64,000 nucleotides of DNA. Source: Gyrodactylus bullatarudis (taxonomy: Eukaryota; Platyhelminthes; Monogenea; Gyrodactylidea; Gyrodactylidae). Below the pieces are notes generated by a model. That model was not told where the DNA came from, did no database searches, and saw nothing but the letters and a program-made list of their open reading frames with translations. Below, piece by piece: positions 19,484-60,790 of this stretch. How positions within the stretch are numbered: the stretch's first letter is position 1; each line of letters starts with the position of its first letter. The translations under genes and the position numbers were made by a program. Where the stretch lies: the NCBI GenBank assembly GCA_012064415.1, contig SSNU01000064.1, positions 464,525-528,524 on the forward strand, in the 5' to 3' direction.

Positions 19484-20221
19484 GTTACAGGGAAAATGGG
19501 AAATCAGTGAGTGGACAGAAATCACTAGTGAAAGTGGGAAATGAATTAAATTTTTCCGATTTTCTGGTTCACTGGTTTTTCCCTGAAATCATATATCAAG
19601 AGTATTATCTATTCCAGATATATGCGTGAATGGTTTATTCATGTCATAGACTGTATTACATGTACAAGGGGGATTTCATTTCACAGTATTTATCTCTTTG
19701 GTACTGAAGTTCTGAATAATTTAGTTTGTTAAAATTTAATTTCAGGTAATCTCTAGTTTCATAAACAATGTTATATTGATTTCATAATATTTACTAAGGT
19801 AATTTTTTAAAAAGTTAGTCAATGGTTGTCTTTACGAGATAAAATTAAAGAATTTTAAATGTTTGAAAATACAACTCTTGATACACTCGCTCAGTCATAT
19901 TTTTAAAAACTAATTTATTTAAAACTACTCTCTCTTTAGCCCTATGTAGATAAGAATACCTAATCTAAGAGTCCTTGGACCAACCAAATATATTAATAAA
20001 ATAGAATAAAATCCCCCCTTTTACGTGTAATACACAGTCTATGACATGAATAAACCATTCACGCATATATCTGGAATAGATAATACTCTTGATATATGAT
20101 TTCAGGGAAAAACCAGTGAACCAGAAAATCGGAAAAATTTAATTCATTTCCCATTTTCACTGGTTTCCCACTTTCACTAGTGATTTCTGTCCACTCACTG
20201 ATTTCCCATTTTCACTGTAAC
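19484..20221. mobile_element. Large terminal-inverted-repeat element, GTTACAG family (738 bp)
   Basis: Left arm 19,484-~19,665 and right arm ~20,030-20,221 are near-perfect reverse complements over about 180 bp. Both open GTTACAG and include GGGAAATCAGTGAGTGGAC and CCAGATATATGCGTGAATGG. The right arm carries an extra ~17-bp GTGAAA-rich unit, so the arms have diverged by duplication. The central ~360 bp shows no transposase frame. A non-autonomous element is likely; the ends match those of the element at 35,911-36,476. Confidence 0.8.
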
Positions 20222-22788: not shown

Positions 22789-25700
22789 TCAGTTATTTTT
22801 ATGATTGGCTGATGCAGTGGCATATGGTGAAGGTCCCGAGTCAATTTGATCACTGACTAAGAGAGGAACACGAAAATCTAACATATTTGGTAGAACTGCA
22901 ACCCTTTCAAATTCATGAGTCAGTTTATTTTCAATCCACTCAAGTATTCTTGAAACAGATATATTCATAACTCCAATCTGAGGTTTTGCTTTCAACTTTA
23001 ACTGGGGACATGGCCGGAAACCGAACCAAAGGCGATCTGACGGTGGCGGTGGAAGATTCAGGACAATTGTACCACTTAATTGAAATACCTGGTAAAAAAA
23101 GGAAGAAGATTAAGTTTAAATCAGCAGAGATTTTATTGATCTGAATAAAACATTTGGATAACATTAAAATTTTTGAAACATACATCAACACGCATTTTAA
23201 GAGGTGTCTTTGACATGTAGTCGATACCCTTGAGAATAACCTTGTTCTGAACCAAAGTTGATTTTGCAAATTTGTCAACCAGTCGATATATTGCTTTCTT
23301 TGTTTGTTTTTGGGATCCACTAAAGATGAAATTTGAGTAAAATTAATCAAGTAACTGACTAATTGATATTTTGGATAAGTATTGTCATCATATTTCAAGT
23401 AACTATGGGAAAGAAATCAATAAAACTTTCTCGAATTTGTCTGATCCAGTCTGTGGAGAGAGGAACGAAAGAAAATCCTACTTGCAATCACTTGAACTCA
23501 AGATCTCTAATTCCATCTTTCAAGGAGAATTTTTTTCAAATTCAAGTTCAACTCAAATAAAATCGTACTAAAAGATTTATAATTACAATTATAGTTAAGA
23601 ACTAGTTTAATCCATTCAATAATGCTTTGTGCAAATACAAATAAAGCGGAGAAACTGATGAAATCTGGGTTGTGCTTAGAAAATTATTTAGCAATTGAAA
23701 AGAAAAGAAGAAACAAAACCAAAATCCCCTTATTGAAATGCTTGAAAGAGCTTGGAAATTTTCTCCTACCGGTAATCAATCTCATTAGTGAGAGATTCGA
23801 TTAATTTGAGAATGTGATTCTGAATACTATAGAAACAAATTTGGTTAGTTCAGACGAATTCATTCATACATAATGTAAGAAGCATACTTTTCCAGAACCT
23901 GTTGAGAATTGTTGGTCTTGTCCTCTTCTGCTTGAGATTCGTCCTCAGCATCTGGTGTACTTTTGACCTCTGTATTCTAAGAGGAGAATATATTTTAAAA
24001 ATTAAGATTAAAGATTTTATTTAGACAATTAAAGTCCCTCAGTGATAGTTCAATCACACGTCATTTTAACAACTCATTATTATTCATTCAAGCCTCAGAA
24101 AATACCTAGTTTACCAGCCATTCGATAGAAAATTTATTAATCTCCTGAAATAGATCTCGGCTCTATCATTCGTCAAACTCGCGCTAATTTAAAGAGAGTT
24201 GATTTTTTTCAAAAAATTAATTCTTGTTTAAAACGTTTATTTTGAAAACCTACTTCCCAGGGTCATAGATAAAAAATAAGATAACTTTTATCGAGGAATC
24301 ATACCTATAGCTTCTGAACCAAAAATAATTGCGTTAAAACAACTGTAGATTCGTAATCAGCTTATTCAAAAAAAATTCTCTGGGACTTTAAAGGTTAAAT
24401 ATTATTTTTAATTGCGAAGCAAATTTGAACTTTGAATCCACAAAAAATCTATATGGAGACTAGTTTCTCTAAAATTATATTTGGAAGTATAAAGAGAACT
24501 TCTTTTCTCTATTGAATAGACCACTTGATAATGAACTATATTGTATATATATTGCTATTAGTAGTGGGAAAATATAAAAGATAGTCCAAACTATTTTTTA
24601 GCCGTAATGGATATGACTCTTATGACCAAGGCTACTTCAATTCATAAGGAAGCTGAAGATGTTCAAGAAAAAACAAGGCTATATCGATTGATTGAGACAA
24701 GGAAAGAAAAAAATTTGCCAGAAATAAATTAAACATTGATATCGTTCAGAATAGGAATTTTATTTATTTAGAAGGATTTAGAAAAATCTCAGGTCAAAGG
24801 ACATTGGATAGGATTGTGTAAATGTTTTATTGATTAGTAAATGAACTGTATAATCAAAGTTCATTCAATAGTTGTTAATTATAGGTATAATTAAACTTCT
24901 AAATCTCCTAAGCTACAAAAACAGAGTTCATTAGAACTTGACAGAATGAATTATTAAACTACAAGAAAACCAATGGTCTGAGAAACTACGAATAGCATAG
25001 TATAGAAAGTTATTCTTTTGGTACTAAATATTCATATTTAGACATCACGATAAGAATATTTTGTTTAAATATTAAATTCAAAGTGCAGACAATAATAAAT
25101 CTATTGTAGTCAATAACATCAAAATTTGAATGCTTGTACTATATATGATAATAAATTTAATAAATACCCAAAATAAATAAAGTTTTTAAAACTCATCAAG
25201 CTTCAAATTGTTAAAATACTACCAGAATTTAACTAAGACGATAAGTAGATAAGCGTTTAATTATAGTATTCAAGTAACAATAACTATTACTAATAAGTAG
25301 TAGACTCTTCACTCAAGTAGTGTGTTGATTGTGACACACAATTTGTGCAGCCCTTAAAGTCTCTTATTTTTATCACATATCATTATATCTACTCATTATT
25401 TAGGAAATTAAAAGAAGATATAATAGAGGTAATATACTTTAAAAATTATAAAAGTTAAGAGTTAATTCAAGATAATAATTTACAAATTATGAAAGAAATA
25501 GTAAGAGTTAGAGAAAATAAGAATAAAATGTAAGCTGAAAAACAACAAAACTCTCAAATAAATAACAAAATTGGAGAGAAAAGTGAAAAAGCTCACACTG
25601 GTCAAGTTAGTTGAAGATTATAGAAATAGTTTTTCTGAACGCATAGATTAGGTTTATTTAGGTTAATGATAAATTTTTCTTTCATCCATACATCTATGCT

Positions 25701-28700
25701 GTCGTCACTAGGATTTTTGTATAAAACGGAGAAATTAGAAATTGAAGCTGCATGTCTTTCTTGTCTAAGATGCCTAGTAACCGAAGTATCTTTCTTAAGA
25801 TGATCGTTCGCTCTTGTACAATTTTCAGTTGTATGTCATTATAATATAACTAATTATTCATTCAAGGCTGAGATTTACTACACATTCGACAGTAAGTCTC
25901 CTGAAATACACAAGGAAATCAGCTAAATCATTCGTGCTATACAAATTCAGAGAAAGTTGTCTTTTTTGAAAATCTACTTCCCACAGTCATAGATAAAGAG
26001 TAAGATTTATCGAGTAACCAAACCTGTAGGATTTAAAAATGCAACCCTATCTGCTAAAGCTTCAAATTTTGATCAATAACTCCTGAACTAAAGACAGTAA
26101 TTTTTGGGAATTATCTAGAGTATTAATAGCAAACGGAAAGACTGTATTTAGGGTGATTGAAAATATTGAACATAATCATTTACAGGTGAAAGTCCTGTAA
26201 AGTGAGAAGAGATAAATAAAAATCCAACTCTTCCCCGTTTAGGACAAATTTCACTCAAATATCATTGGTTCCCTGTAAGGACCAATCAGAATCGAGGATT
26301 GCTCATGGGGAAACATTTTTTTTTGTTAGACATGGATGTTTTTTTTCTTTGAAATCGAACATTTTTATTTGTATACAGAATTATAAAGATTAATGATTGT
26401 ACAAATAAGAGATCAGAGAAAGAGGGTTTAATGTGACCGGTGTGGGAGGGTTTGAACCTGGGACCGAGGATGTTATTTCTTATCCTGCTCTACAATAAGG
26501 CCTAAGAACGCTAAGAAATGAGTTTTTCTGATATTTGATTTCAATAGATATGAGAATATCATTTTTCTCTATCATATGATATAATTCTTTTCGGGAAATA
26601 ACTTCTAATAAAATAAAAAAATTGATAAAATATTGGAGTAAAACTCATACCATTAGAAAGCTGAGGAAAAACTGATTCATCCTATAAATTTACAATGCTC
26701 AGCGGATCATTACAAGGAATTCATAGGTGTTAAAAGTTCTGTCGTGCTCATTTTCAATTTTGAAATTAAAATTCAATCTTTAAACCTCAATCTGACAAAA
26801 AGTCATGATGATTCATTCTTTCACAATATGTCTAGTGTAGATTTTAACATGGGCATTGATGCCCCTCCCTCATATCCGTATCCACACAGTCATGTAATAA
26901 GTAATATGTGTAGAAAGGGAAAATTTAGCATTAACATACAGACAATCATTTCACACAACATGTGATGGGGTACTTTAGTTCAGATCCGCTTTGCTATTTT
27001 TATTAAGTTAGTTACACCTTACACAAAATTTCTGCAGCATAGCATGAAATTGGACTAATAATACTGTAGTACAATAAAAATTCCCCATGTGAAAATGATT
27101 GCTAAACAAAACTGGGGATGATCATTAATCTAGTGTTGTAATCACTTTTAGTTATCTTGGAATAGAAAACATTCACATTCTGCTACTGTGGATATGTCAA
27201 ATGCAGGGATATAATTTTAGTTATCGTAGTAGTAGTTAAAGTTAATTAATTCCAAATCAAGAGAGAATTCATAGAATTCCAGTTCCGCAATAAGCAATTA
27301 AAAAATGCAATAACAACCAATGATTTGATGGGGTGCGGGGGATTCTTTCAAAACTAACAGCATAAGATGAAAAAGAAAAATATAATAGCAAAATCTTTGT
27401 TTTAGAATGGAAATACATAATGCAATAGGGTCAGCTGATTTAGCAAAGATTAACATTTTATTGCAAGAGTGTGTTAGTTACTGACAAATTCTTGGAGATA
27501 CTGAACTTACTGTTGAATTGTTTTCAATTTCTTCAAAAGTGTCCATATCATTTGTTGTATCAGAGTCGGTGGTGGTTTCAGCTGAGTCTTCCTCATCAGA
27601 TAGGAACACTGCCTTTTTCATACGATTCTTGTTTGTTTTCTTTACAGTGTGTTTAATTTCATCAGAAAAGTCTTGGTCATCTTCGTCATCTGAAAAATAA
27701 TTTTATTATCTCGATCTTCAAGAGTGTATTCAGAACATACTAGCTTCTTTTTTCATTTCTTTTGATTTCATTAGATTTATTTTTGTTTCGAGCATAAGTG
27801 TGAAACAACCGGCATATACAAACTCCAATTCAAACCATACTCCATGAGTATCGACAAAAGGTTTTGCAGCTTTTCTAATTACAGGAATATCGTTGCCTAA
27901 TTCCACGTTAACAACAGTCAGAGGATCAATGAACGGTGGTACTTTGATCTTGTTTAATTTGTTCTGAATTCTCTGTTTAACTTTTTCGAGCCAGTGATCT
28001 TCACGGAAGAAATCCCAGAAGATTCTTCCAATAAGAGCATTTAACCAGGCCATTTGGTCATCACAAAAGACATTTCTAATGTTCAACTGAATAGCGAAGC
28101 TACTCTTTAACAGCCAATCAGCTGGCATACATTTGGCCATGTATCTAATGAAGTGAATATTGAGTGATACAAGAACTTTATTAAATACTTCTAGACTAGT
28201 CTTTGCAATAAAAAAAGAGGTATTTGCAAAATTAGTCTATAGAACCATTCATTTAATCAGATTTAGTTTAAACTTTTCCATACCTGTGAGTATTTAATTT
28301 TCACATTTAGTTTTAGTATTTAGAATATAGTCAAAAAAAAATCTTTTATAGTTAAAATCTAGTATGGTTTTCAAAAATAGTAAGTTAAATTTTGACGTTC
28401 AGAACTTTAAGCTTTCGAGCAGCAATTGATGCGGCCAAGAAGTAATCATTAAATTTTGGACAAAATTCTTGTAGTGCAGTGTTTTAGAAAGTAGACCTTG
28501 TTTAAAACTTTTCGGGAGTCATCAAGCAAAATTCATAAATAGCATGAAATGGATGAAGACTAAGGATATCTTTGAGCGCTGAGTTTGCAGATTTCATGAA
28601 AACTGACCCAATTTTTAAAAGGTGTGTTCAAGGATCCGAAGAGAAATTATGAGATTTTTGTATTTATAAATATACTATTTTTGATTAGATTTACTAGATT

Positions 28701-34700: not shown

Positions 34701-37700
34701 TGATAAGTTTAGTAATTTCGATCAAAAAGAATCATGAATTAAGGAATTCTACTTCCTTCGGTAAAAATTTAAATATCTATGGCACTCTTATGCCTGACTA
34801 GCAATAATATAGCATGATAGCAAACTAAGATAGTCATTGTGATATACTATCAAAAAATAATCATGAAAAAATGTTTCAAAATCATTGAAAAAAGTCAGTT
34901 TGAACATAGAGGTCATATATGACCTCAGGTATCGAAAGGGTTAATTCCCCTGAAGAAGTTTACAGAAAATTTTTCATTTTTCTGGGAAATCGAAACTACA
35001 GCAATTGTATTCTTGACTATCAGGAGAAAAATTTTGCGTTTTTTTGTTAGAAAATATATCTATATTGAAAAATAGGTAATAAAACAGAAAAATCTCATTT
35101 TCATCGTCATCTATAGTAGACACTTTGTGTATGAATAACGTATAGGACAAAGGTAAAAAATGGAATGAAATTATAAACATTTTTGCTTCATCATTCTACC
35201 AAATATATATCTTTTAATAAAGCTTTATTCACCAAAACCATCTTTCGTTTGTTCTTAACTCCAGCATGACTTCGAATCAGCAACCCAAAAATATATATCT
35301 AATAGAGTAATACAAAATATTTTATCCCGCACAACTTCCTGGTCGATTTGCTAATTTGGAGGCTTTAACACAAAAAGGAGATTCTCATGGATTGAATTCA
35401 AAAATTTTGCTGTTCTGATACCCAAAAATCCCATTTTCCCAAGATTCTTTAAAAAGCATTGAAATTTTCAAAAAAGGGTAAAGATATGTAGCGAATGGAT
35501 TTTAATTAACTATCAGAATGAATCCCATCCAAAAAGTAATACAGATTGCTCAAGAAAATGAATTTTATTATATATCGTAGTAAAATTTATTCAAAATGTG
35601 TTGGCGCGGGTTTTAAAATTTTCAAATGACATTTTTTATATCAGAACCAAATTTAAAATTCAATAGGATTTTTTTCTCAAAATTTAATTCACTATCGAAT
35701 GAGCAGATAGTCGAAAAAGTTTTTAAATTTTGTATAACTCTAATATCTATGTAATAATATACAGATGCATGAGTGTATTCATGTTTCAACTTACTGATTT
35801 TGATCGAGTATTTCTCTTCTATTCACAAGAAGAAATGTTTACAATATAATTATAAGTAAGTATTCTTCTCATTGTTTGTAAACTAATTATAATTTGAAGT
35901 TGATATATATGTTACAGTGATTCTGGAAACTTATGTGAGTCTGCAGACTTCCTGAAAGTCTGTAGACTCCCTAGTAAATTAGGGAATCTGGAAACTCGGT
36001 ATTCAGATTTCCTGATTAGCTATTCACTAGTAACAGTGAATCTGGAAACTTTAGGAATTCTGCAGAATCCCTGGGTAACAATCAGTGAGTCTGCAGACTC
36101 TCAGGGATTCTGGAAACTGATTATAATTCGTCACTGCTGTCAAATCATATGAAGCCCTGGCTCTATATTTCAGCTAAATAAAATAAGCCTTAAACCAACA
36201 GTAATAAAAAGACTCAGAAAATTTCTTTTTAACTTTATTTTAAACTTATCTTTCAATTCTGAAAACACTTGTGTATTCGGCTAAACACTAGCACTGACCA
36301 AGAAGAGTGTATTTTATTCATACCATTGAAAATTTAGGGCTTACAACTTAGTAGTTAAAATTAATAATAGTTATTTTTCCAGAATCCCTGAGAGTCTGCT
36401 AGGGAGAGTTTACTAGGGAGTCTACAGACTTTCAGGAAGTCTGCAGACTCACATAAGTTTCCAGAATCACTGTAACATATATATATATTAGAGAGAGTAC
36501 ATGTTTAAGACAAAAACAAAAGAAAAGCATGTTATTCCATCTCAAGGAACACAATACAGTACAGCTTAATTTTGAAAAATAAACTTTAGCAAGTACGGTC
36601 ATCATTTGAGTTGACTATGTCTTTTTTCCAGTAATAAAGTCGGTCGGTATGAGTTGGTTGAGAATCTATGATTTTAACAAAACTCTCAATTTCATAATGT
36701 GAACCAAGTAGTTCTTCAGGGAGCTTTTTCTACAGATAGACCAATACAAGCCAGAAGACAACATAGTCAGGTAGCAAGCGAAAAACGTTATTCTCAATTT
36801 CATCGTCATTTTACAACCCTCACCCACTATGATTCAAATTATCCCTGAAAATACTTTGAACTAATAAGAGGAATTCTCACAAATTAGTATAATAGTTTGT
36901 TGAGATCCAATAGAAGTTTTATAACTGAATATTCACTTGACTTCCAATTCCTTATGAAGATCCCTTTAATCATAAATTACGATTTGAAATCCCAGTTTTA
37001 TTTTAATTTTTAACTGAAAATGTTTAATGATTAAAAAACTGGGAGGGTGAACAAAACAGGAGTGAAAAATGACTATATTTTTCTAGAAATAATTTTTTCA
37101 TTATATTTCTATTCTCAATGCAAAAATTGAAATTTTATTAAAAATCATAGATTCCCAAGTTCATATCAATTAGCTTTTTATATTGATTTTATTCCTATTA
37201 ACAGTCTATAAAGGAAATAAATAAACGATCTTTGTAGTGCAAAATATCGATATGTTGTCGAATTTTAAGAAATTCTCATCAAACGAGACATCTTTTGCAA
37301 GATATTATTAATTTAAAATGAAAATGCAAAAACGTTAATTGGTTCATTACAATTGAAGTTTCGATCAAGGGGGGTAGAGAGAATTTATCATCATTATTTG
37401 AGGGTTTTTGAATTTTTATTCGATATAAACCCAATTGACATGAAGATGAGAATTTACTTTTTTTTACAAAAAACTCAATATTTTTCTTCGGAAAGTCAGG
37501 AAAAAACTTATTTTTCGAATTCCATAATCAAATGAACCAATAAGTTGTGGAAATTTTTAAAAATTTCCGAAAAAATTCAATCTGACTTTTCATCTTTTGA
37601 ACTCAAAAATTTTATCGATTTAAGAGATTTATCGCAGTTAAATTCAGATATTCGAGACCAACATTAGACAAAGAATTGGAATTGGGCCGTGGAAGTAGAG

Positions 37701-40700
37701 AGACTTTAAAATTTTGAATCATTAGTGATAAACAATAAATTCAAATTTTTCTATTTCCCACATTAATGACGAATTTCTGTGAATTTCTGTAGCCCATCTC
37801 CAATTCTCCGTCTAATGCTGGTCTCGAATATCTGCATTTAACTACATTAAATCTATTAAATCGATAAAATTTTTGAGATCAAAATCTGAAAAAGTTGAAA
37901 CTTGGTGACTTTCCGAAATTTGAAAAACAGTTAGATTGAGTTTATTTGGAAATTTTTAAAAATTTCCACAACTTATTGGTTCATTTTATTATGGAATTCG
38001 AAAAATAATTTTTTTCCTGACTTTCCGAAGAAAAATATTGAGTTTTTTTGAAAAAAAGTAAATTCTCATCTTCGTGTCAACTAGCTTTATGATGAATTTG
38101 AATATCTTCTTCTCCGAATCCCTCATACATATCTTTATTAAGTCAAGAGTATCCGAGTTAGGTAAAAAGGTGGCAATCGATGATATTTTCCCCCCTCAAA
38201 ATTGACATATCTAGACAGATTTGATTCAAGGAGATAAGACTCCTCTCAGTTATCATGTTGGGTAGTTTATCTTTAAATTTCTTTCAGATTGACAGACAGA
38301 GAGGAAAATAAGGCATTCACCTAACACAATCTAGAAGATCTTAGCATCTAATGGAAAAACAGATTTTAGTTCGAAGATGAACTTACTTTAACTGATGTAT
38401 TCATGATAGATGTTTTAATATGCTTGGCTGATATGTAGATTGGGTATTTTTTACTCCAATATCTCTTCTTAACAATGCCTATAGGATAAAGCGCTACTTT
38501 TGTCATCTTCATATCAATCGTATACAGACTAATGAAGGATGACATGTTGGGCTGAGTTGTCTGTGCACTTTCATTCCACATGGCTCGTCGGGGAATATTT
38601 CTCTTTGGTCGATAGATTTTGAGTGTTGTCTCCTCAAGGACAATGTAGACAGACTTTGTCATATTCAAACGATGCGTAAATGGATTATATGTGTTAACCT
38701 ATTAGGAAAATTTGAGTAATCTCACTTAATAAACGAGGAAATATAAAAAGCAAAGTGATATGGTGTTGGGAATTTATTATTTCGATTTTTTCATCAAGAA
38801 CTCGAATATGTTGATGATTTTTTTGGAATCCAACTCATGCTGTCAACTTTCATCTTATGTAGAAAAAAATTATTCTTATGAAATACATGGTAATTTTTCA
38901 AATCTCGATTTGGAGCCAAAATCTGATTTTTTCGAACTTTGAACTGAAAATTTTTATTGATTCAAAAGCGGCAGGATGTTCAAAAGAGGTTTTTCAAGAT
39001 TAAAGTAAGACAAGAGAGCTGAATATCCCCGTCAAATTAACGAAAGTTCCACTGAGAGATCTTGAATTATTTAAATGTCGTATAGTGAAAATGCATTCGA
39101 ACAGATATAGCATAATTTATTTTACAGTCTAATCTTTATGAATTTCATTTTGACCATCCTGCCACTTTTGAATCAATAGAAATCTTCAGTTCAAAGTTCG
39201 AAAAAATCGGATTTCTATCATTTATAATAAAAAAGTTATGGGTGTTTAAATTTTGACTAAAAATGAGCTCAATTTATTGAATAATGTTTCCAAAGTCACT
39301 GAAAAGACTTTAGATAGAATTCTCTAATTGATTTTTAATTTAACAAGGTGTAATTATGAAACAATTTGACCTTAAATAGACAATTTGTGACTGAAATGTA
39401 ATGCATAATTAGTAAGAAACTTTAGCTCAACTTGTAAATTAGGGAAGAGGGTGATGCATTAATTTTTCATCAAAATTTCAAAGTTTATTTTCAATAGTTT
39501 TTATACTTAATGAACGAATTTGATAGGGTTTGGTGGTACTGATCGAATCAGGAGAAAATTCTCTACAAGTTGAGACCAGAAACTAGAAAAGTGACAAAAT
39601 TTGCCCAAAATATTAAAATTTAAATATATTTGTCCTACTTCTTAGTAGATTTCAAATACGAACTCTTATTTTTAGCTAGAAAATCGGGGTGTGCACATTC
39701 TCACACACCAAAACTGGTGCACAACTGTATTTCATAAAAATAATTTTTTTCAGATTTTTTTCTTCATAAGATGAAAGTTGACAGCATGAGTTGGATTCCA
39801 AAAAAATCTTCAACATATTCGAGTTCTTGATGAAATAATCATGGATACCCAACTCCGTAACAACCAACTTTAAATGGTCTTATTTTGATCATCTACCTAA
39901 TGCTACTGACTATGAAAAAACTAGAAAGAGTCTAAAAAGTTGATCATGCCATTTCGTCAAGTATCATTCAGGAAAGTTAGTTTATTCTAATACATATGTT
40001 TTTATTTTTTACAGAATAATAATCTGCAATTGTTTATCAGATTGAAGAATTGATTCTCTTTGAAGATTAGAAAAACTGTTTTTCTTATTACATCAGACAA
40101 TTAATATTATTCTCACAGTAGTGTTTTCAATTTGTGTGTTATTCCATGCTTAAGGAGAGGGGATTCCCATGAATCTTGATAAGAGGAGTTGATTTTATTC
40201 TCAAAGATGAATTATACTCCTTAAAAGAAAATGACAAGTCAAATGTACAGTAGTAGGAGAAGGGATATTCCTAGTCAATTGTTAGACATGATGCAAATAA
40301 AATGAACCAAATTTAAATGAGGAAAAGAGGGAATTCTATCTATTCCACGAACGAGAGTAGTGGAAGAAAATTAAAAATAAAAATACATTTGAATAATGGG
40401 ACTCTTACATCATAATTGACCATCTTTAAGGAATTGAAATGAATAGAGAAAGAGTTGGAAACAAAATTGGATAAAATAAAAAAAGGAAAAGAACAATTTC
40501 AGTCGATGAGAGCAGTGGTTTGATTTTGAATTTCTACATAGTAGATTCAACTCCTGATTGGTTTTCATTTTTTCACAAATTAGTCTTAATAAAGAGAGTC
40601 ATTGAATAGGCTGAATATCAATCTATAATATAAATAGGTAAAAATTGCAAATATACCAAATTCTACGCGAACAAATGACAGGAATGCAAATAAAAAACTC

Positions 40701-43700
40701 AAAAGTGAAGTCTAAAGTCCAGAGAGAACTATTTTTAATGAATACTTTCTATCTATAGTGGTAGAAAAAATAAAAGTATTCACTAGAAATTGTCTCTAAA
40801 TCACTTATTAAAAGTTATTGAAAATGGAAAGATGACCCATTCGATAGAGAATATTCGTTTCTATCAGAAATTACTTTTACTCGTACAAAGAGTTCATTCA
40901 TATTTTCATAAATACAAATTTACAATATTTCATTAAATTTCAAAACGAAAAATTAAAAGTATTCACTTTTATTTTGTAAAATCTCCCCTACCAAGTACAA
41001 CATTTAAGCACCTTTTTGACATGGAATCATACAAATTTTCTATTATTTCTTTTGGGATTGATTTCCACTCTTCATTGATTCTTTGAACTAGTTCTTGCCT
41101 ATTTGAATATACTCTCCCTTGGGAATAGACTTTTTGAGATAAAATTCCCCACAAGTTTTCAATCGGATTCAAGTCGGGGCTCCTAGCTGGCCATGACAAA
41201 ATCTGTATCTCATTATCATCAAACCATGTTCTAGTTGATGCTGATCGATGACAGGGAGCATTATCTTGCTGGAATATCATCTCGCACTTATGAATTTCCT
41301 CCTTAAAGGGTAATAGCTGATCCTCAAGCAATTTCTGATATGAATTTGAATTAAGCTTCTCATCAATAACGACAAGATTTCCAGTTCCTTGCTTTGTGAT
41401 AAACCCCCAAACCATTACATTGCCTCCACCAAATCCTCGTTTGATTTTAGTAGGTCTAGGTAGAGACTTGTCAATCCAACAAGAAGAAAGGCCATCAGGT
41501 CCATCCAAATTGAATTTTTTCTCATCTGAAAACATGATTTTACTCCAATCTTGGTTTTGGACAATTTTATCATGAGCCCACTGGTATCTCGATTCCCTAT
41601 CCTTGATACTTAGATTAGGAACCCTTTTTGGTCTTCCCCAATAGATATTAGGATTAGTATTCAAATAATTTTGAACTGTTCTAATGCTGACATTCAATTT
41701 AAGCTCAGCTTTTATTTGAGAAGCTGTTGCTTTTTTCTTGATGGCTAGATTGACAATTTTTTTAATCAGGCAATTGGGTATGGATCTCTTTCGGCCTCGC
41801 TTTTTCGGATTTAGCTTCTTTTGTTTGACTGAAAACAAATTATTAACAGTTCTACATGAGCATCCGATTATTTTAGCTATCTTCCGATTGCTTGAGCCAT
41901 CTTGTTTTAATTTGTTGACAAAATCTCTATCACAGCCTCTCAGCTTCGAAAATTTCAATTTTTTAACGAACATTTTTGAACTATGTTTAGTTTATTGGCG
42001 ATAATATATTTGAATGTACTGTGTAAGAGATATAATGAAAATTCAGAATTCAAAGTCTAATTCTAACTGGGAAAAAAGGTGATTGAAACTGAATACTTTT
42101 AATTTTTCGTTTTGAAATTTAATGAAATATTGTAAATTTGTATTTATGAAAATATGAATGAACTCTTTGTACGAGTAAAAGTAATTTCTGATAGAAACGA
42201 ATATTCTCTATCGAATGGGTCATCTTTCCATTTTCAATAACTTTTAATAAGTGATTTAGAGACAATTTCTAGTGAATACTTTTATTTTTTCTACCACTAT
42301 ATAATATGGGTTTTGAATGAAATTTGATCTAATAATTGGCTATCTCTGAATGTATAACAGATCGAGTTCAGGCGATTGCAAATATATTTGAATTCTACAG
42401 GTATGAGTAATCTTATTTTTTATCTATGACTCTGGGAAGTAGGTTTTCAAAATAAAGGTCAAACAAAAATCCTAATTACTAATTAGTAGTTAGTACAGCA
42501 CCTGTGTGATAGGGGGTTGAGATCTTTGTATATTTAATGAGATTAATAGATTTCCTATCGAATGGGTGGTAAAAAATTCTGAGGCTTAAATGAATAGAGT
42601 AAAGTCTCTAGATTCATCCAAAAAAGTAACTTGTTTCTTGTTATTATTACAGGAATCAATAATTATTGTAGTTAAAATATTTGAGTTTGTGTGCATAGCA
42701 AAAGTAATTATTTTAATGTTATTCATAGGATTTTTTTCTTGATTACTCTTCATAAAATCAATACATGTTGATTGTGAACATAGAGAAATATTTTTCACCA
42801 TATTCTCTCTGCTACTAATCTAATGATTATATAGCTTTGTAATTTGTAAAAGAGGTTCTTTTCAATAATTTTACCCAAGATTCATATAAAGAATGATAAA
42901 AATTAACTTGCCATATTCATCCAGCCCTTGTAGAATATTTTCCCATTGGGTTTTATTGTTGGGGAAAGGCCATTCGCTAAATAGCTGCATGATTCAATAG
43001 TATTCAAATAATTTGTATGGTCACTGCTAGCGGGTGATGTTGAGTTTATTATCGAACTGGTTGGGCCAATGCTACTGTTCAATGTGGAGATGGAAGGATT
43101 CTGATTGATTATCTGATTAGGATTGATGGCACTTGATGTGGCCAAGTCTTTGATATCCTTCATGGTAGCAGAAGGATTTGACGAAGTCAAGCTGACGCTC
43201 TCTAATAAGGGATCTGATGAATTTTGAGTAGTTGCTAAACTACCAGTAGTATTGGAGGAATTATACGAAGATGTTGTTGTAGTTATTTCTGGCGGCAAGA
43301 TTGGAATCTAAACAAATATTATGTTTAACAGAAAAATGCTCAGCAAAATTAATCTAAAATTGAGACACTAATAAATTAACGTATTGAAATTAGAGATTTC
43401 AGGTATGCCAAGTATTGGGCATTTAATTTTCGGGATATGAGATAGATATGCCGAGATCTAGGAGAGATTAAGAGGCAAGTTATGTATTTTGTTTGTGTCT
43501 AGAAAAGTTTTCACCTTGTAGAATACAAAAATTATTTCTTCATGATCTAACAACCTCTATATAATTAGAAGCAGAGATGAGATTTTCTCAAAGAAAGATA
43601 ATCTAAAATTACTCTTAAATCATGAGAATGTAACAATAGAGGAAGAAATTATAATTTGGCACGCGATACTTTTGAAAAATACATAATTATTTTGAATACA

Positions 43701-52244: not shown

Positions 52245-55200
52245 ATGGATGAAGAAAAGGTTGTTCTTAAAGCTCCATATGAAACTCAGTTAACAGGTAT
52301 TTATTAGTGATTTTATGCAATATCTGAATATTTTGAATAAAATTGACATAAGTATGGATTTTAATTTCGTACATTTAAACTGCTATTGATATAATAACAA
52401 TTTTATTTTCGCAAATGAATATAATGATCTTGATACTTTCAATCTTTCTCTAAATTTTTCTTCTTTAATTAACCAGGGCCTTACGATGTTCCTCCCGGAC
52501 TTGAGTTTCTAAGATATTTTGATCATGTAATGGTCAGACAAGATCTTCCAACTAATGGCAGTAAGTCAATAAACCTATTATATTTTCCTTATTAAAGTTT
52601 CACATTGTTGAAATAAGTTATATCTCAGTTAATTGATATCGAGGGTAGGTCATTTCAGGAATATCATCCATTTAGTTATTTCGTCGACAAAGTTTTCAAT
52701 CTTTATTGCAATCCTATAATAACATTTAGCATGTCAAATTTCAATCATATAATTAATTTTCATTCTTTTAATAACTAAAACTGCAATAAAACATACTTTT
52801 TTCAATTTTAAAGGAATTTCTCGGTATGAAAATCCGAATAAATACTCAATTCTCAACCCTGATGGAAATCAGGTTCTGACAGCAACCGAAAGGTCCAGTT
52901 TCTTATCTCGTTTGTGCCTCGGAAAATATAGAAGATTTGTCATGGAGGTCAAGACTGCTGCTGGACAGGTCATAGCATTTGTTGAGCGACCTTTCAAATG
53001 TGGTTGCATGTGTGGCCCAGCATGTGTACAGGTAAAATACTCTATTTCTATAAATGTTTTCTAAACTTGACGAAAATATTTTTAGCAATTGAATATTTAC
53101 GCTCCGATGGGACGTAAGCTCGGAACACTCGAACAAAAATTTGGCTGCTCAATCAATAATTTCATTTTGAAGGATTGGACCAACACGACACAACTCATAA
53201 TCAAAGGTCCCCTGTTCTCTTGTCAATCGTGCGTTGATTTAGTTCTGAAAGTAAGTCTTTATAATCCCTTTACAATGATAAAAAAAACTCGTTGAATCAT
53301 TTGGTGATAATCGATCACGGAAATAGAAATTTCTTTTTACTTTAAAATCATACAATAAATGTACTTGATAGTGGATCTTGATTGGCAGCTTGACTCAAGT
53401 CAACATTTTTAGAATTAATTTGCATGAGATTTTATTAGTAGGGTACGTTTTTTTATGGCATAGGTCACATGTTCTATAGTCTTTTTAAATTTCCCTCATC
53501 CAACATACACTTTTTGAGAATTTTCTCAGTGTTTTATACTGCTACTTAGAATAAAACATTATTGATTTTCTTATTTTTGGCTTTTTAATTTTGGATAAAA
53601 AATACCCAAAGATGAAATGATTTTGATAAATTTTTATCTACCTCCTCCCGGACAGATCTGATAGAAGCCAAGTAGACATTTTTATCATGAATTAAATCAT
53701 TTTCCTAACAAGAACTGTTAAAAGTAAATATTATAAATTTTTTCGAAAGAATTTCGAATTTCTGCTCTAAAAGCTATATTTTTTGAGTAAATACAATTTC
53801 GATTATTTTTCTTTGAAAAAATCAATAAATTCCAATTGGTGAATGAGTAATTACTGTTTTTTCTGTATGAACAAAAATTTCTCCCATTTTTTTAAAATAC
53901 CCAATAAGAATTGTAATGAGTCAAATTCATTATGAATGAATCGTTAACCCATCTTCTCTTGCATTTCATTCAAATGATACTCTACACTGCTACTCTCTTC
54001 TCAGGGTGTATTTAATACTCAGTAAGTATTCAGTTAGTAGTAACAGAGGAATGCATACTAAAAGATGAGTTAGTAACTCTCATCACATTAGTCTTCCTCT
54101 GTCTGTCACACCCTCCTGCGAATATTTCTGCTCTCCTTCCCTAGTTTGTTTGTCCTAAAAAGATTATTTATCGTTAACTAAGACTATACAATCGATTACT
54201 AAAAATATCCTTTGTCATAAAACTTTCACCTACACTATTATCATTTCTATGATGTGCATCAGGATATTTTATAATCAATCCATATTTTTTGGGTAACCAG
54301 AGTTGATAGAAAATTTATTCTTGCTTGCATTTGATTACAATTTCAATTGAGTCTGTTCAGAACATTTAAACAGTACAACTAAATCCAAACTTACTCGACT
54401 CGACTATATAACTGTGTCAAAGTGTATGTCTTACCGTGAGTTTGGGAAATCAGTCAATTTTAGTATTAGTTTGTATATCGTGGTAATCTGATGAATGAGC
54501 CCTCAAACTGAAAAAGGTTAGTGGATCTGGATCTGAATTCCTTCTTCTGATTTTGAAACCAGCTTACCTGACACTCATAAGATTAATTACTTTGAAACAA
54601 GATGTCCAAGATTATCTTTGTTAAATATGATCAATCCCTAAGACAGATGATTTCCTATACTCAGTGACCATTTCACTGTGTCTATAGATAATAAGGGATT
54701 ACTAAATAGATTCACTAAAGTCACTCTGATTTCTTAAACTCAACAATCGACATGTCTACTTTTCTAAGGGTATAACAAGATTCTTTTCATATAGCTTCTT
54801 TAAATGGCTTATCTGTAAAAGTATCCAGACCAGATGATTCCATGTTGATCGTATACTAGATCGAGTCACAAAGGAAATCAAAAACTGCTAACTGTAAATA
54901 GAAATGCTTGTATGGAAATCTGTGAAAAAAACACTTTGACTAATTGTTTAGTGGTTATCTCTCTTGATAATTCTTTCTCATGTTCTTCTTCTCTCAGAGT
55001 GATGGTGTGCAACATTTTTTTCTAAAACATTTGTCTGTCATCTTCAATACAGGAGATGAAAAATTAAATTTTAATATAAGAAAGAATCATAGAGAATAAA
55101 ACATGAAAAATGTTGAATTCCTCTCGTGAATGATGATATGGCATGGGAAAATAAAATTTATCTCCCCCCTGCTTCCGTCATTAAAACAAATGGGGCTCTC

Positions 55201-57987
55201 AAGTCTATCATCAAATGACTCTTATCAAGTCATGCTTCCAATTTCAAACTAAGAAATCCTTCAGAATAATAAATTTTTATGCTATTTCTCGCATGATCAA
55301 GATCTATGCATAAAACTTGAGATTATTGCAGACTCTGTAACACAGTATTATTAGTAACTGCTCAGGATTGAGTAATTATTGAAAAGCCCTTCAATCTACA
55401 GATTTCAATGGATGATCACATCAAATTTCTAAATATAGATTTTCCATTTTGCTGAAGAATTAAAACTGTTAACTTTTTATAGAATGACAAAGTTTTGAGA
55501 CCAAATAAGTAAGCTTATCCATTTTGTAGGCTACGAAATCTATCCATATGAAATCTAAGTTGATGGAGATTTGCCTTCTCAACTTATAGATGTGGGGAAA
55601 AAGGACAATTCCATGAGAGAATCGGATAATACTAAGGATTTTTCACTTCCCAGTCTTCAACATTATCCAATTTCTAAAATCTAGGCATGACAAAATAATT
55701 GAAAAATATTATTTTTCGATTTCAATGTATTTTTTGAATAGTTTATTATTATTGATTTACCAAAAACTCAAACTGAACCAAAACATTAAGATAATTCCAA
55801 GGTTATTTTTGAGCTTAGCAATGAAAATCATCTATCTACCTCAAAAATTTGGATTGAGATCATTGGTATGAATGGAATACCATGCTTTAATGATGTATCA
55901 TTTCTTTAACCTCATTTTCACAATAATACATTTTGAGACCTTATAACTTCGAACTCCGATATCTTAGAAAAATTAATTTTTCTTAATGGTTTTCAGAACA
56001 CAGAGGGAATAACTCGTTAAAAGAAGCATTTTAATCCTTTTTGAGGCTCCAACGATGACTCTATGCTAGAACTATAGGTTGATTTTCGGTCTTTTAAAAT
56101 CCAAAAAAATGCCATTCAAAAGACGGCTGTTTCACTATATTTAGAGTTATTTTAGACAGAAAATATATACATTGGCTGATTCGTGAAGTTTCTATCTCAA
56201 CAAATGGCAAATTTGAAAAATCAATGATAAGAAAGGTTATTAAAACATGAATTTGGAAACTGATTTTCTATGTTTTTGCACATGTAATAGGTCAAAGTAG
56301 GTTTAGATCGTTTCTCTACCAAAACTCGATACATTTACTGGATCTTGTCTCAATATTTAATGAATAAATAGAGATGTAATGAAAAAAAATTTGCGCCAGA
56401 TAATCTAGTCAATATCTCACCTATAACCAACACTCTTTTTCAATAGAAAAGTAAAATAATCACACAATTCCAATAACATGCATTTTGTAGCTTCTTTTCA
56501 ATTTTCAAGAGTTGTCAATCTAAATCAATGTAATTAGATATTTTCATTCAGAGCTTGAAATCTTAAATTTTGATAAACCTATTCCATTTAATACTTTTTT
56601 TTTATCGATTTCCTATAATGGATCATTTCGACTCTAACTAAAAAGTAAAATCTCTCTTTCAAGGTTGTTAAATATGGAATTATTAATTTTACTAACATTT
56701 TAGCAAAGAATGAAAAAGGCAATTGAAATCGGTAGCTTATTTATTTAAATACATAACAATCTTTCTTTTTTTACATACTAAGAGCACCTACCAGATTATA
56801 ATAGTTTCACTAGAAATATTTCGTTCTAGGTGCTTAGGTCGTATATCCCACAGGAACGTCATATTTGGTAATGGATTAGCCCATGTCGCTGAATGTTACA
56901 GCTTACTAATGGATCCCACCGAGACTGGTACGAAAGAAACTTACAAAGCATTTAGAAATAATTTAAGTATAAATACATGGTAGACATATACGCGCGTTTC
57001 GTCCTTTTTCTGGACTCATCAGTATGCCACAACCTGGGATTTGAACCTCGGACCTCTCGCATTGTAGACCAATGCTCAATGCACTCGTGCAACATCCCAT
57101 GCAACTCGGATTACTTCTATATGCTCTTTCGTACCCCTAGGGTTTTGCTTACTTATGAATAGTGCAGCACCTATACTTACTAAGTTTAACTAGAAATATT
57201 TCGCTCTAGGTGCTTAGGTCGTATATCCCACAGGAATTGAGCATTGGTCTACAATGCGAGAGGTCCGAGGTTCAAATCCCAGGTTGTGGCAACATTCAGC
57301 GACATGGGCTAATCCATTACCAAATATGACGTTCCTGTGGGATATACGACCTAAGCACCTAGAACGAAATATTTCTAGTTAAACTTTGTGAGTATAGGTG
57401 CTGCACTATTAATATAATAGTTTCCTCAATTAATAGCATAATATATTTATTTTAACTTGAATGAAGCTAACCTATTTTTTTTTAAAATTTACTTCATATT
57501 CATTCAAATGCAATAGATGTATATTCCAACTACAAAATAATATACAAATTAAAAATATTAATATTTTGAAAACAGTAGTAGAATCAAATAACTGGCTTTA
57601 GTTATGTCATCAATTATCTCTGGTATTGAATTACACTTCATCGACATAAATTACTTGAATTTGAAGGTCAACAGAACGAAAATTTAGTTCTCACGATTCT
57701 TGAAAATTTTAGTTTGTACATCTTTCCGATTAGTTCTCAATCACACATGTAACACATTTTCGTGCCTCTTATTTTTAAAATTTTACTCTCATCAGTGGAA
57801 AAACTTGCAAAAGATTCATAGATCATGATCTTTTTTTTTCCTATAGGTTTACACTCCAGCAAGTTCTAGTTCTATCGGACGCATCATCCGACAATATTGC
57901 AATGGTACAGACAACTTTTCCATCATATTCCCTCAAGACTTGGATCTCAGATTAAAGGCCCTACTCATGATGACTCCAATGCTCATA
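52245..57987 (+). CDS. Phospholipid scramblase family, 3' end not found
   Basis: Exons 52245-52296, 52477-52560, 52814-53031, 53086-53250 and 57847-57987 give 220 codons with matching phases (1, 1, 0, 0); the last exon is missing. Scramblases are membrane proteins proposed to move phospholipids between leaflets in response to calcium. The family blocks are present: VPPGLEFLRYFD, NKYSILNPDG, FVMEVKTAAGQVIAFVERPF, the cysteine cluster CGCMCGPAC, the QSCVDLVLK strand, and GTDNFSIIFPQDLD, which corresponds to the calcium-binding loop. The first loop aspartate is a glycine here. The expected C-terminal membrane helix is only begun (LKALLMMTPMLI); after a GTGAG donor at 57,988 the usual short acidic end was not located. 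The N-terminus is short, with no long proline-rich region. Intron 4 is 4,596 bp and holds the tRNA/hammerhead composite. Confidence 0.88.
56974..57033 (-). ncRNA. Hammerhead self-cleaving ribozyme
   Basis: On the minus strand all invariant core elements are in order: CTGATGA (57,022-57,016), stem II GTCC with a 7-nt loop AGAAAAA and GGAC (57,015-57,001), GAAA (57,000-56,997), then stem III and GTC (cleavage after the C pairing with g56,983). Stem III is short: A-U, C-G and G-U pairs, then a loop. Stem I can form from TGG, a two-base CA bulge and TA on the 5' side pairing with TACCA after the cleavage site. The string CTGATGAGTCC plus GGACGAAACGCG is what is known from the tRNA-related SMalpha SINEs of schistosomes. 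Activity is inferred; the weak stem III means it may act as a dimer or slowly. Confidence 0.85.
57026..57102 (-). repeat. tRNA-like SINE head, upstream of the ribozyme
   Basis: Minus strand opens GCATGGGATG, has a D-arm-like part, a 5-bp anticodon-like stem (GCATT/AATGC) around a 7-nt loop, and a B box GGTTCAAATCC (57,047-57,037). The acceptor ends do not pair as in a functional tRNA. It is the polymerase III promoter part of a SINE and leads directly into the hammerhead. Confidence 0.7.
57238..57290 (+). repeat. Second tRNA-like segment, inside the inverted-repeat element
   Basis: Identical to the T-arm/anticodon part of the 57,026-57,102 head but in the other direction, with B box GGTTCAAATCC at 57,269-57,279. 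It begins abruptly at TTGAGCATTGG, so the A-box half is missing, and after GTTGTGGC it joins the inner edge of the right arm instead of a ribozyme. Confidence 0.7.
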
Positions 57988-59639
57988 GTGAGTTGATTAA
58001 CCAACTAAATTTGCTAAAATATTGTCTGGGAAACTCAAAAACCCTAATACCGAATTAAGACTACTTATAATAAGATTATTTATGATTCAAGTTTTAACGA
58101 GTGAGTTTACTCATCATTCTTTTGATACCAAGTTTGATCCTCTCTCTCATTAATAACCTAAAAAAGGTATCTCTCAAAAGAAACATAGATTGATTTCTAT
58201 AGATTGGTAAATAGTTAAAATAGAGTTTAGAGAATCTTTCGAATAAAAATAACCCTGGCGATGACTAACAACTAGGAGGCGACTATTCTTATCAACATCC
58301 TGTATTGATATTGTAAATCACTCTGATAAGACCTTATCTGTTTTCCTCGTTGAGGATTGTTTTTTTATCATTTCATCTTTATATCCTTGAGACAGTGCAT
58401 TCTGCTCGTAAAATCCATTGAAATTCAAAATCAATAAAGAGCACCTTCTACTACATAAATTTCTAAGGCCTGCTAATCATGAACAAAAAAAGCATATTTG
58501 TATCATTATAATCATAAAATTCATTCATTAATTTCAATCAATGAAAAATAGTAATACAATTCTATCGTACAAAGTTGAATGTATGCTTGCGAGTCTCTTA
58601 TAATTTTTGTATTATAATAATGCCTTTTGATTTTATTAACATTTAATGACAATTATATATCAGTAGGCAGACATACGTATATTGTGTCTGTCGACCCTTA
58701 TCGAATGTCCTTTCATTGATTCATTGAAAATTTTTATTTAAAAATGAATGAAAATTGTTAATTTTCTATAAAAAACATGTGGGTATTTCAAAATCATTAA
58801 TATCTGAACCTTATTCATTCCTGGATTCATGCGAATGAATAGAAATAGGTAAAACTAACAGATAAAATTTTTTTCTAATTCAGCCGGTTCCATACCTGTT
58901 GTCAGCATCTTCTAATCTCAAGAATATAATACAAGAGTTTAACTTTAACAAATATCATTTTCACGGTGTACACTGTACATACTAAAACAGACAATAATAT
59001 AAAAATACATGTTTTTAATTGTTCACTTAAAACATGACAATGTTCACGCTTCTCTTTTTCGTCATACGCTTCATTTTTCATTCTCAGTAGAGAATCAAGT
59101 GTAAAGTTTATTATTTATTGATTTTCCATAGAGAGAATATACTTTTTACCATCCATCTCTATCTCTCTATCTCCTTAGCTTGCCTTGAATGTTTCGATGA
59201 TTAATTTTTTAATCATGACAAAAGCAACGAAAGAGAAAGAAAGATAAAACCCACGCCAGTGTCTACTCACATCCATCTTTATAGAGAGACTGAAACTTTT
59301 ATTTCAAGCATTCCTCTCTTTACTCAGTATTCTACTCTAAGAAGAATATGAGAGAAAACTTTCAAGATGATCATTTTACAAACAGACATGGGATAACGTG
59401 TAGAGATGTAGAAAGTTGATACTTTGTCAGTTTGGCTTCTCGGAGGTGTTTCATTTCTCTTTTTAATAATCAGGCTAGACTTTGTAGCAATGTTAACTTT
59501 TTGGCTAATTCGAGTACGACAAAACTTTATAAGATTATTATTATTATCAAGATACCATTTAGAAATATGTTAGAAAATATATTTATAAGCAAATGCGCAT
59601 TTCTCAAAGGATCATCAGTGGTCTCTCTTTGAAAATGAT
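57988..59639. other. Non-genic region, presumed scramblase intron 5
   Basis: The scramblase last exon should lie here or farther on, but no AG followed by a plausible acidic C-terminus was identified. No repeats or RNA genes recognised. Confidence 0.4.
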
Positions 59640-60790
59640 AAAAGTTTGAATGAAAAATAATAATTTACAATTTACAAAGAAATAGTAAAAGTTTAGAATA
59701 TAAGAGTCATGAATGGAAACAAGAATATTATGTAAGCTAAAAAACACCAAAAACTCTTCAATAATTAGGAACAGTGAAGAGAAAAAGATGAAAAAGCTCT
59801 CATAGGCCACAGTAGTTGAAGATTAAACGAATAATTCTTTTGAACACACAAATTAGGTTTATACATGTTGATGAAAAATTTCTCCTTCATCCACACATCT
59901 CTGCTGTCAACCCCTGGGTTTTTGTTTAAGACAGAAAAATTAGAAATTGAAGCAGCATGGTTTTCGTTTTTAATATTTCTGGTCACCGCAGTATCTTTAT
60001 TGAGGTGATCAAGAGATCTTGTTGACAACTTCCTACTTGTACGCCTTATATACGAAGCCCCACAGTCACACTGAAATTTGTAGATCAATAGAGTCTTTTC
60101 TTGAGGGTCAAGTAAATCCTTATGGATTAAACTGAACAATCTCTGAGTTTTGAATACAATTTTCAATTGTATATTGTCATAATGTTGATCGATGAGATTG
60201 TTCAGTTTTCTCCTAACATCATTACTAATACCATCACCTTTGAAGTTGAGTCTCATGAAAACTTTTTTATCGCCTTCCTCTGTATTGACAACCTCATCTC
60301 TAACCAAAGGTTGATTGATGAACTTGTCCACAAATTTGGCTGGATAACAATTTTCCATTAAACAAGACTTTGCCGTCTCTTTCTTTTGGTATTTCTTCCG
60401 GACCAGCAATCCTCCGTATTCTCTTCCCTAGACCAATTACTAAGCCAACTTTATGTGAAACTGGACTAAAACTTGGCATAATTGAGATATTTGCCGTTGT
60501 CAGTCTTTTTCTTAAAGATATTTCTTAGAATCGATCCATCTTCTCGTCTGGTTTGCTTGACATCTAAGAAACTTAAATACGTTAGACTCTCTTTCCATAA
60601 AATCTTTCTTTATTTCTTAATTGCCAATTTTCTCAACATAACTACATTCAGAAACTCTACTAAACCAGTCCTGTCCTGTATAACATTAAATGAGAATCTC
60701 ATAAAATTCGATTCATTTTACTATTTTCAAACATTTCTTTACAAACCTTTAGCATCATTTATATAAAAAAATTGGCATGAATTCAAAACT
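59640..60790 (-). mobile_element. Penelope-like retroelement, RT end plus GIY-YIG endonuclease
   Basis: Minus strand. At ~60,600-60,480 FLDVKQTRREDGS and KKKTDNGKYLNYAKF match the end of the Penelope reverse transcriptase. After a frameshift SPVSHKVGLVIGL leads into the open frame 60,409-59,765, which has CGASYIRRTSRKLSTRS (GIY-YIG region, with R in place of the G of YIG) and ends near MRAFSSFSL. Penelope-like elements carry exactly this RT plus GIY-YIG order. 5'-truncated and frameshifted, so inactive. The 3' part to ~59,640 is shared with the fragment at 25,465-25,850. Located near the 3' side of the scramblase gene. Confidence 0.88.

Follow-up and report, generated by a model that had tools for sequence, protein, structure and literature searches.

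A hammerhead-bearing repeat with Penelope-type insertion scars in a scramblase intron of Gyrodactylus bullatarudis

A 64,000-nucleotide stretch of Gyrodactylus bullatarudis DNA (assembly GCA_012064415.1, contig SSNU01000064.1, positions 464,525 to 528,524 of the forward strand), here called the window, carries a hammerhead ribozyme on its minus strand, within a short repeat inserted in a scramblase gene. We analysed this insertion together with its relatives in the same assembly. The repeat is probably a non-autonomous retroelement of the retrozyme type, with a unit of 380 nt, mobilised in trans by Penelope-like elements (PLEs) of the same genome. It fits the description of a retrozyme-type element with insertion scars of the Penelope type better than that of a short interspersed element (SINE) of the SMalpha kind.

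The insertion and its host gene

The insertion at 56797-57424 consists of a 604-bp head-to-head pair of arms enclosed by 12-bp target duplications. The outer ends of the arms are named A and B, after the two sites of the 380-nt unit at which arms of the family preferentially end. The features of the insertion and of the surrounding gene are the following.

52819-53268, plus strand: scramblase exons lying upstream (PF03803 scores 70 bits over the stretch, above the cut-off)
56797-56808, unstranded: left target-site duplication TATAATAGTTTC, an exact 12-bp flanking repeat
56803-57235, minus strand: arm 1, 433 nt, B end outward (jump alignment, locus L001)
56983-57028, minus strand: type I hammerhead with stem I GGCAUA/UAUGUC, stem II GUCC/GGAC and stem III ACG/CGU (RF00163)
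57023-57098, minus strand: head resembling an RNA polymerase III (Pol III) promoter (sequence and family consensus)
57037-57047, minus strand: B box GGTTCAAATCC, matching 11 of 11 consensus positions
57154-57235, minus strand: tail portion of a second unit, seamlessly continuous with the first unit's head (alignment)
57235-57236, unstranded: inner head-to-head junction (jump alignment)
57236-57412, plus strand: arm 2, A end outward, unit positions 74-128 followed by 257-380, the ribozyme stretch being absent (alignment)
57413-57424, unstranded: right target-site duplication TATAATAGTTTC, an exact 12-bp flanking repeat
57889-57987, plus strand: scramblase C-terminal exon downstream of the element (PF03803, 20.3 bits, E 3.6e-4, cut-off 25.4)

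Arm 1, the initial bases of which overlap the left target duplication, runs from unit position 351 to position 1 and then passes through the unit seam into positions 380-299 of a second unit. Window coordinates are obtained by adding 55429 to those of L001. In the jump alignment arm 1 is 99% identical to the unit, which was largely derived from this arm. The seamless tail-to-head join in arm 1 is sequence evidence of a template that would have been multimeric or circular.

Three pieces of PF03803 (52819-53031, 53092-53268 and 57889-57987) lie on the plus strand in the order of the profile. The first is the strongest in its own right (E 1.6e-14); the second, which alone scores 20.8 bits (E 2.7e-4) and falls below 25.4, passes jointly with the first. 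Because PF03803 exons are found both upstream and downstream of it, the element is intronic. An earlier note on this DNA, made from the letters alone, had placed the ribozyme in a scramblase intron and antisense to that gene, and this placement holds: the three pieces are on the plus strand and in order, two of them being below the cut-off when taken alone, and the ribozyme is on the minus strand.

The hammerhead ribozyme

Read on the minus strand, positions 56983-57028 are GGCATA-CTGATGA-GTCC-AGAAAAA-GGAC-GAAA-CGCGCGTA-TATGTC. In an Rfam search of 551 bases, RF00163 aligns to the whole of this segment (29.2 bits, E 3.5e-5), and the full-length alignment contains the catalytic core and three stems and is open at stem I, as in type I hammerheads. 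CTGATGA, stem II (GTCC/GGAC) and GAAA are thus confirmed, by the sequence and by the alignment, where the earlier note had located them. The cleavage site differs. The Rfam register places the triplet, GUA, at 56991-56989, and the predicted cut falls after A56989. The GTC at 56985-56983 had been taken for the triplet, with cleavage following the C opposite 56983. In the covariance model this GTC belongs to the 3' strand of stem I; since it is paired there, and stem III is ACG/CGU, the triplet is GUA, and the cut had been misplaced by six bases. Hammerheads can cleave NUH triplets, GUA among them.

The score of the window copy is below the RF00163 gathering score of 34, so that this copy misses the curated cut-off and the whole-window Rfam scan at gathering thresholds is consequently empty. 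The bare core pattern was rejected as evidence, as it occurs twice in the window against 0.59 expected and at least twice in 14 of 100 shuffles. Rfam matches to MIR824, MIR2630, sroH and mir-360 were also set aside, every one scoring under its own gathering score; the MIR824 and MIR2630 matches are located on inverted repeats.

The assembly containing the window (77.3 Mb, 471 contigs) holds at least 57 matches to RF00163 at E <= 0.001, a lower bound obtained by scoring 73 of 11,180 candidates. Of these matches, 29 exceed the cut-off, and the covariance search suggested by the earlier note therefore succeeds for the family, while the window copy itself stays under the threshold. No RF00163 match was found in any of 14 control genomes. 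A ribozyme pattern with 26 fixed bases has 20 exact matches in the genome, versus none with the reversed control. The top-scoring family member reaches 45.2 bits and has the same stem I as the window copy. On these sequence grounds, the hammerhead at 56983-57028 is a true type I ribozyme, the evidence being the repeat family and not the core pattern.

The 380-nt unit and its head

Copies of the repeat align to a 380-nt unit composed of a promoter-like head, the ribozyme (approximately positions 126-171), a body and a tail. The GC content of the unit is 41.6%, and TTTT does not occur in it, so Pol III could read through. The A box is weak in the window copy (TGCACGAGTGC) and nearer to the consensus in the family (TGGACGAGTGG). 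Three B boxes are present in the two strands of the window, and the arms of the element account for at least two.

The earlier note had described the hammerhead as attached to a tRNA-derived head. The adjacency stands, since the ribozyme adjoins a Pol III-like segment with a complete B box. For the derivation there is no tRNA call from Rfam in searches up to E = 5, 0.5 or 10, nor from ARAGORN (bacterial setting) in the window or in the 20 loci tried. The label "tRNA-derived", which rests on the B box, is at most a fair guess. At its end the tail reads CATA or CTAGT, and it is neither A-rich nor a simple repeat.

Insertion pattern across the family

Our own jump alignment was applied to 108 loci (L001-L109, minus the PLE locus L089) and yielded 110 chains once duplicates had been removed. 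Thirteen chains of AT-rich noise were dropped, leaving 97 chains from 90 loci; a few loci give two chains, some of them possibly belonging to a single insertion. The loci had been collected because they resemble the element, its tail or its ribozyme, and the proportion of head-to-head pairs is hence a biased estimate. The 97 chains comprise 61 head-to-head pairs, no tail-to-tail pair and 36 single arms. All 61 inner junctions are distinct.

The outer ends of the arms cluster at two sites. At site A, aligned ends range from 366 to 27 across the seam, most being at 376-380 or 1-6. At site B, about 34 nt short of A, they range from 334 to 365, most being at 342-357. Both outer ends could be typed in 51 head-to-head pairs, of which 49 combine one A and one B end, the other two being A+A and B+B. 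If ends were independent and equally frequent, 49 or more mixed pairs would be expected with a probability of 6e-13. Thirteen loci fetched later yielded eight head-to-head pairs (six A+B, one B+B and one with an untyped end), four single arms and one locus without any segment; 6 of the 7 typed pairs are thus A+B.

Short words shared by the two flanks mark target duplications. Words of at least 9 bp are shared in 29 of the 51 typed pairs, compared with 2.8% for swapped flanks, and 27 of the 29 are 10-14 bp long; words of at least 8 bp are shared in 36 of 51, compared with 8.7%. At L003 the element is inserted in a PLE, and the duplicated flank bases are PLE bases. Head-to-head arms within a short target duplication, with a 30-40 bp tail on one end only, are the features of Penelope-type integration, and all are present in the family.

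In 8 of the 97 chains an arm extends across the unit seam, with no fewer than 30 nt on either side of it; one of these chains (L061) is doubtful. Only 1 of 130 listed junction ends falls within unit positions 1-10. Position 1 is therefore unlike an RNA start, and a multimeric or circular template would fit better.

SINE insertion of the type driven by long interspersed elements (LINEs) produces copies in one orientation with an A-rich or simple-repeat tail. The 61 head-to-head pairs, ending in CATA and CTAGT, do not have this form. The plain SINE architecture proposed in the earlier note is accordingly set aside: aligned chains are mostly head-to-head, have two preferred outer ends and in many cases are flanked by duplications of ~12 bp, which is the PLE pattern.

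Penelope-like elements of the genome

Published systems are cited here and below from excerpts of the respective papers. Rotifer PLEs feature head-to-head inverted pseudo-long terminal repeats (pseudo-LTRs), duplications of 8-10 bp and, optionally, a 31-bp tail on one of these inverted pseudo-LTRs, and the authors favour self-priming as their origin (PMC3846280). In the work on the anole PLE, the purified protein was found to cleave and extend both strands of the target, with a preference for AT-rich DNA; reverse transcription begins at two internal positions of the RNA, the spacing of which explains the 30-40 bp tail present in "a fraction" of PLE copies (PMC11167929).

At least 150 scored PLE matches, including those of the window, are present in the genome; the count is a lower bound, obtained by scoring matches to the window fragment among 3,835 candidates. 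The window contains two fragments.

59557-60598, minus strand: 5'-truncated PLE, 77% identical to L089 2662-3696 (BLASTN)
25441-25808, minus strand: second PLE fragment, 79% identical to L089 3253-3620 (BLASTN)

The PLE at L089 has a pair of 263-bp pseudo-LTRs and an open frame containing a reverse transcriptase. It aligns lengthwise, through the GIY-YIG region, to P0153, which carries the Pfam label GIY-YIG; in L089 itself there is no Pfam GIY-YIG call. The best matches of the PLE protein are flatworm PLEs, with 33-36% identity in the five top named matches. The PLE at L110 is a head-to-head pair with arms 98% alike, a duplication of ~11 bp and a one-sided tail of ~50 nt, the borders being set by eye. 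PLE copies at G000:C26:21062-24265 also appear, as judged from coordinates only, to form a head-to-head pair. Because the L110 and C26 PLEs are paired in this way, the layout of the element is that of PLEs themselves.

Two further observations were made by eye. The A end of the PLE in L110 appears to bear a short likeness to the B end of the element. Positions 965-1002 of L089, in a pseudo-LTR, read as a minimal hammerhead, TCACTA-CTGATGA ... GAAATGTACATTT-AGTGA. Rfam calls no hammerhead in L089, this segment included, whereas the hammerhead of the element is found by the Rfam type I models.

Possible signs of ribozyme use

The ribozyme is spanned by 35 arms, 30 of which carry the GUA triplet. 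The core is intact and an NUH triplet is present in 27 of the 35, and 8 lack an intact core. In loci not found via the ribozyme, the core and stems diverge by 2.5% (1,146 letters), versus 3.4-9.2% elsewhere in the unit; the gap between core and stems and the body (3.4%) is small. The variable ribozyme positions in these loci are loop II (15.6%) and the free core position N7 (14.8%). Covariation was examined among family copies and is uninformative, because the stems scarcely vary.

If RNA cut by the hammerhead served as template, some complementary DNAs (cDNAs) might stop at the cut, between unit positions 165 and 166. In loci not found via the ribozyme, 4 of the 27 inner ends between 116 and 216 are at 165 or 166 (Poisson P 0.0013 for this single pre-set site); they come from L046, L055, L064 and L062. 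Loci found via the ribozyme, a set biased against such ends, have none (0 of 26), and pooling all loci gives 4 of 53 (P 0.018). The 13 added loci have no end at the cut, the nearest being 163 and 168, which brings the first count to 4 of 35 (P 0.004). Overall, 4 of 158 inner ends fall at the cut site and most lie elsewhere. The excess at 165/166 is suggestive, and not proof, of cDNAs that may have stopped at the RNA terminus left by the hammerhead (unit position 166).

Some arms contain internal jumps, from unit position 168 to 327 in L030, from 167 to 342 in L077 and from 128 to 257 in L001. Two of these arms exit the unit just past the ribozyme cut.

Comparison with known elements and host lineage

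Metazoan retrozymes without LTRs (non-LTR retrozymes) have a type I hammerhead, a unit of 170-400 nt, a GC content below 50% and target duplications longer than 4 bp (PMC7229834). The element resembles them in its type I hammerhead, 380-nt unit, GC content of 41.6%, duplications longer than 4 bp and PLEs in the same genome. Unlike these retrozymes as the excerpt describes them, it occurs mostly as head-to-head pairs whose two ends form a fixed combination, has a Pol III-like head and forms no long tandem arrays among the aligned arms.

With SMalpha and Sjalpha of schistosomes the element shares the character of a short SINE-like flatworm repeat with a type I hammerhead and a promoter-like head (PMC8490949, PMC2770079). 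SMalpha-like copies, in contrast, were detected as tRNA-Gln (PMC2770079), while the element gets no tRNA call. More than 38,000 hammerhead candidates are given for S. mansoni in the excerpts (PMC8490949, PMC2770079), versus at least 57 RF00163 matches in the present genome.

In insertion structure the element resembles PLEs and their pseudo-LTRs, which, as excerpted, likewise feature head-to-head arms, short duplications, a one-sided tail of 30-40 bp, unit seams and a hammerhead (PMC3846280, PMC11167929). The 380-nt element differs from PLEs in that it encodes neither a reverse transcriptase nor an endonuclease. Furthermore, the tail is carried "optionally" by published PLEs, according to the excerpt (PMC3846280), and on one end of nearly every typed pair of the element.

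The IDI protein encoded in the window is 39-42% identical to two Schistosoma proteins, 38% to a Trichobilharzia protein and 42% to one from Dicrocoelium; these three genera provide its closest named matches by E-value. The flatworms listed range from 35 to 47%, and the top match overall is a metagenome protein (39%). On this one protein and the PLE matches, the host looks like a diverged flatworm and not a known schistosome. The identification with schistosome SMalpha, and the clue to host lineage that the earlier note drew from it, are not borne out, as IDI is only 39-42% identical to Schistosoma and the assembly measures 77 Mb.

Other repeats and features

The earlier note had also mentioned other foldback elements, which do not prove to be kin of the element: none of five foldbacks of the window that were compared shares sequence with it. 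Their symmetry was dropped as a contrast, because borders taken from matching arms make the arms match by construction. In the foldbacks at 19482-20223 and 35903-36484, which have no similarity to the ribozyme element, the matching arms begin with or near ATGTTACAG, in the manner of terminal inverted repeats or miniature inverted-repeat transposable elements (MITEs). The foldback family represented at 37418-38097 recurs near at least L004, L016, L024, L028, L051 and L052 (among the first 40 entries listed), possibly as a common insertion target.

Two transposase frames of the Tc1/mariner type, each of 334 aa and with the same translation, lie 25 kb apart on the minus strand (15410-16414 and 40969-41973), and the first contains Pfam DDE_3. 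Such twin identical frames suggest a recent or active DNA transposon. The transposase is 35-44% identical to the best 120 proteins listed, with no flatworm among the names shown. COX1 at G000:C13:9972-11309 has 12 in-frame TGA codons, as the mitochondrial code would give.

Discussion

In the mechanism that we favour, RNA would be transcribed from the internal promoter, possibly through several units. The hammerhead would cut this RNA after GUA and, by analogy with known systems, 380-nt monomers may be ligated into circles. A PLE protein would then nick both strands of an AT-rich target ~12 bp apart, and reverse transcription would start inside the unit, one cDNA being primed at site A (~376-380) and the other at site B (~342-357). 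Both cDNAs would extend headward, sometimes over the unit seam, stop at variable positions and be joined head-to-head. A more specific version, which we put forward tentatively and regard as possible, makes the family a ribozyme parasite of Penelope enzymes, in which the A- and B-started cDNAs are copied from two RNA templates and some terminate where the hammerhead has cut the RNA.

An SMalpha-like SINE of tRNA origin, mobilised by a LINE and forming inverted pairs through twin priming or neighbouring insertions, is disfavoured and very unlikely. Twin priming yields one inverted 5' piece, and not two tail-out arms with A and B ends, such as are seen in 49 of 51 pairs. The 11/11 B box and the A-box-like stretch of the family consensus do fit a SINE, as does the presence of hammerheads in SINE-like elements of schistosomes (PMC8490949, PMC2770079); against it, the tail ends in CATA or CTAGT with no A-rich or simple repeat, and Rfam and ARAGORN find no tRNA, whereas a tRNA scan caught SMalpha-like copies as tRNA-Gln in the excerpted report (PMC2770079). 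A DNA transposon of the foldback or MITE type, having long terminal inverted repeats and a chance ribozyme, is also disfavoured and scarcely credible. It would account for the inverted arms and the 10-15 bp duplications, and the window does contain further foldbacks, yet ends A and B differ in sequence and lie ~34 nt apart, 61 of 61 inner junctions are distinct where cut-and-paste copies would be expected to share them, and seam-crossing arms require an RNA or tandem template.

Two other explanations retain a PLE-type insertion. The second arm might arise by self-priming, the cDNA folding back and being copied, instead of by priming on both target strands. In the excerpt, self-priming is put forward for PLEs on the basis of inverted repeats that have palindromes (PMC3846280), and arms within one pair are 96.6% alike (39 pairs sharing 25 or more positions), versus 93.4% between loci. 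A plain fold-back copy, however, should share its outer end, and 49 of 51 pairs differ in theirs; moreover, the shared part is identical in only 4 of 39 pairs, though later mutation could account for that. We consider this explanation unlikely. The hammerhead might instead be a decaying, inactive passenger of a PLE-moved element, outside its life cycle, which is doubtful but carries more weight. The core that is not intact in 8 of 35 spanning arms, the mere 4 of 158 inner ends at the cut and the window arm that has no ribozyme all agree with a passenger. Conversely, core and stems diverge least (2.5%, against 15.6% in loop II and 14.8% at N7, the gap to the 3.4% of the body being small), and inner ends are in excess at 165/166 in each of the three counts given above (P 0.0013, 0.018 and 0.004).

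Several observations weigh against a retrozyme-type element mobilised by PLEs. One arm of the window insertion lacks the ribozyme, and the cut is therefore not required in every arm; the anole PLE inserts in vitro without need for ribozyme cleavage, according to the excerpt (PMC11167929). The same source reports that start sites did not differ between top and bottom strands, so that a strict rule of one A and one B end is not predicted, which lowers our confidence. The rule itself is looser in a cruder check by BLAST only, in which 64 tail-out pairs comprise 48 AB, 6 BB, 5 AA and 5 with an untyped end (48 of 59 typed pairs being AB), in addition to 5 tail-in pairs and 17 same-strand neighbours within 700 bases. 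No duplication of at least 8 bp is seen in 15 of the 51 typed pairs. The aligned arms, the longest of which is 461 nt, include no array of two whole units, and BLASTN finds no sequence or tail shared by the element and L089, the single full PLE compared.

PLEs have been named as strong or likely movers of retrozymes on the circumstantial basis of shared hammerheads, tandem copies and co-occurrence, in the excerpts consulted (PMC7229834, PMC7761336), which make no use of insertion structure. We found no evidence from insertion structure for PLE mobilisation of metazoan retrozymes in the open-access literature, as far as it was available in excerpt, and such evidence may exist elsewhere. In the present family the insertion structure itself shows the PLE signature, across tens of copies whose junctions are distinct. 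The pairing of A with B ends is also informative on how PLEs insert: because the near-strict rule of one of each stands against an optional or fractional tail and the lack of a strand difference in the anole assay, it points to an order of events. If the more specific version given above is correct, the genomic copies would be direct footprints of the trans-mobilisation of a retrozyme by PLEs. They would also record an ordered, two-step priming that is unseen in the published in vitro assay, as well as ribozyme cleavage in an animal.

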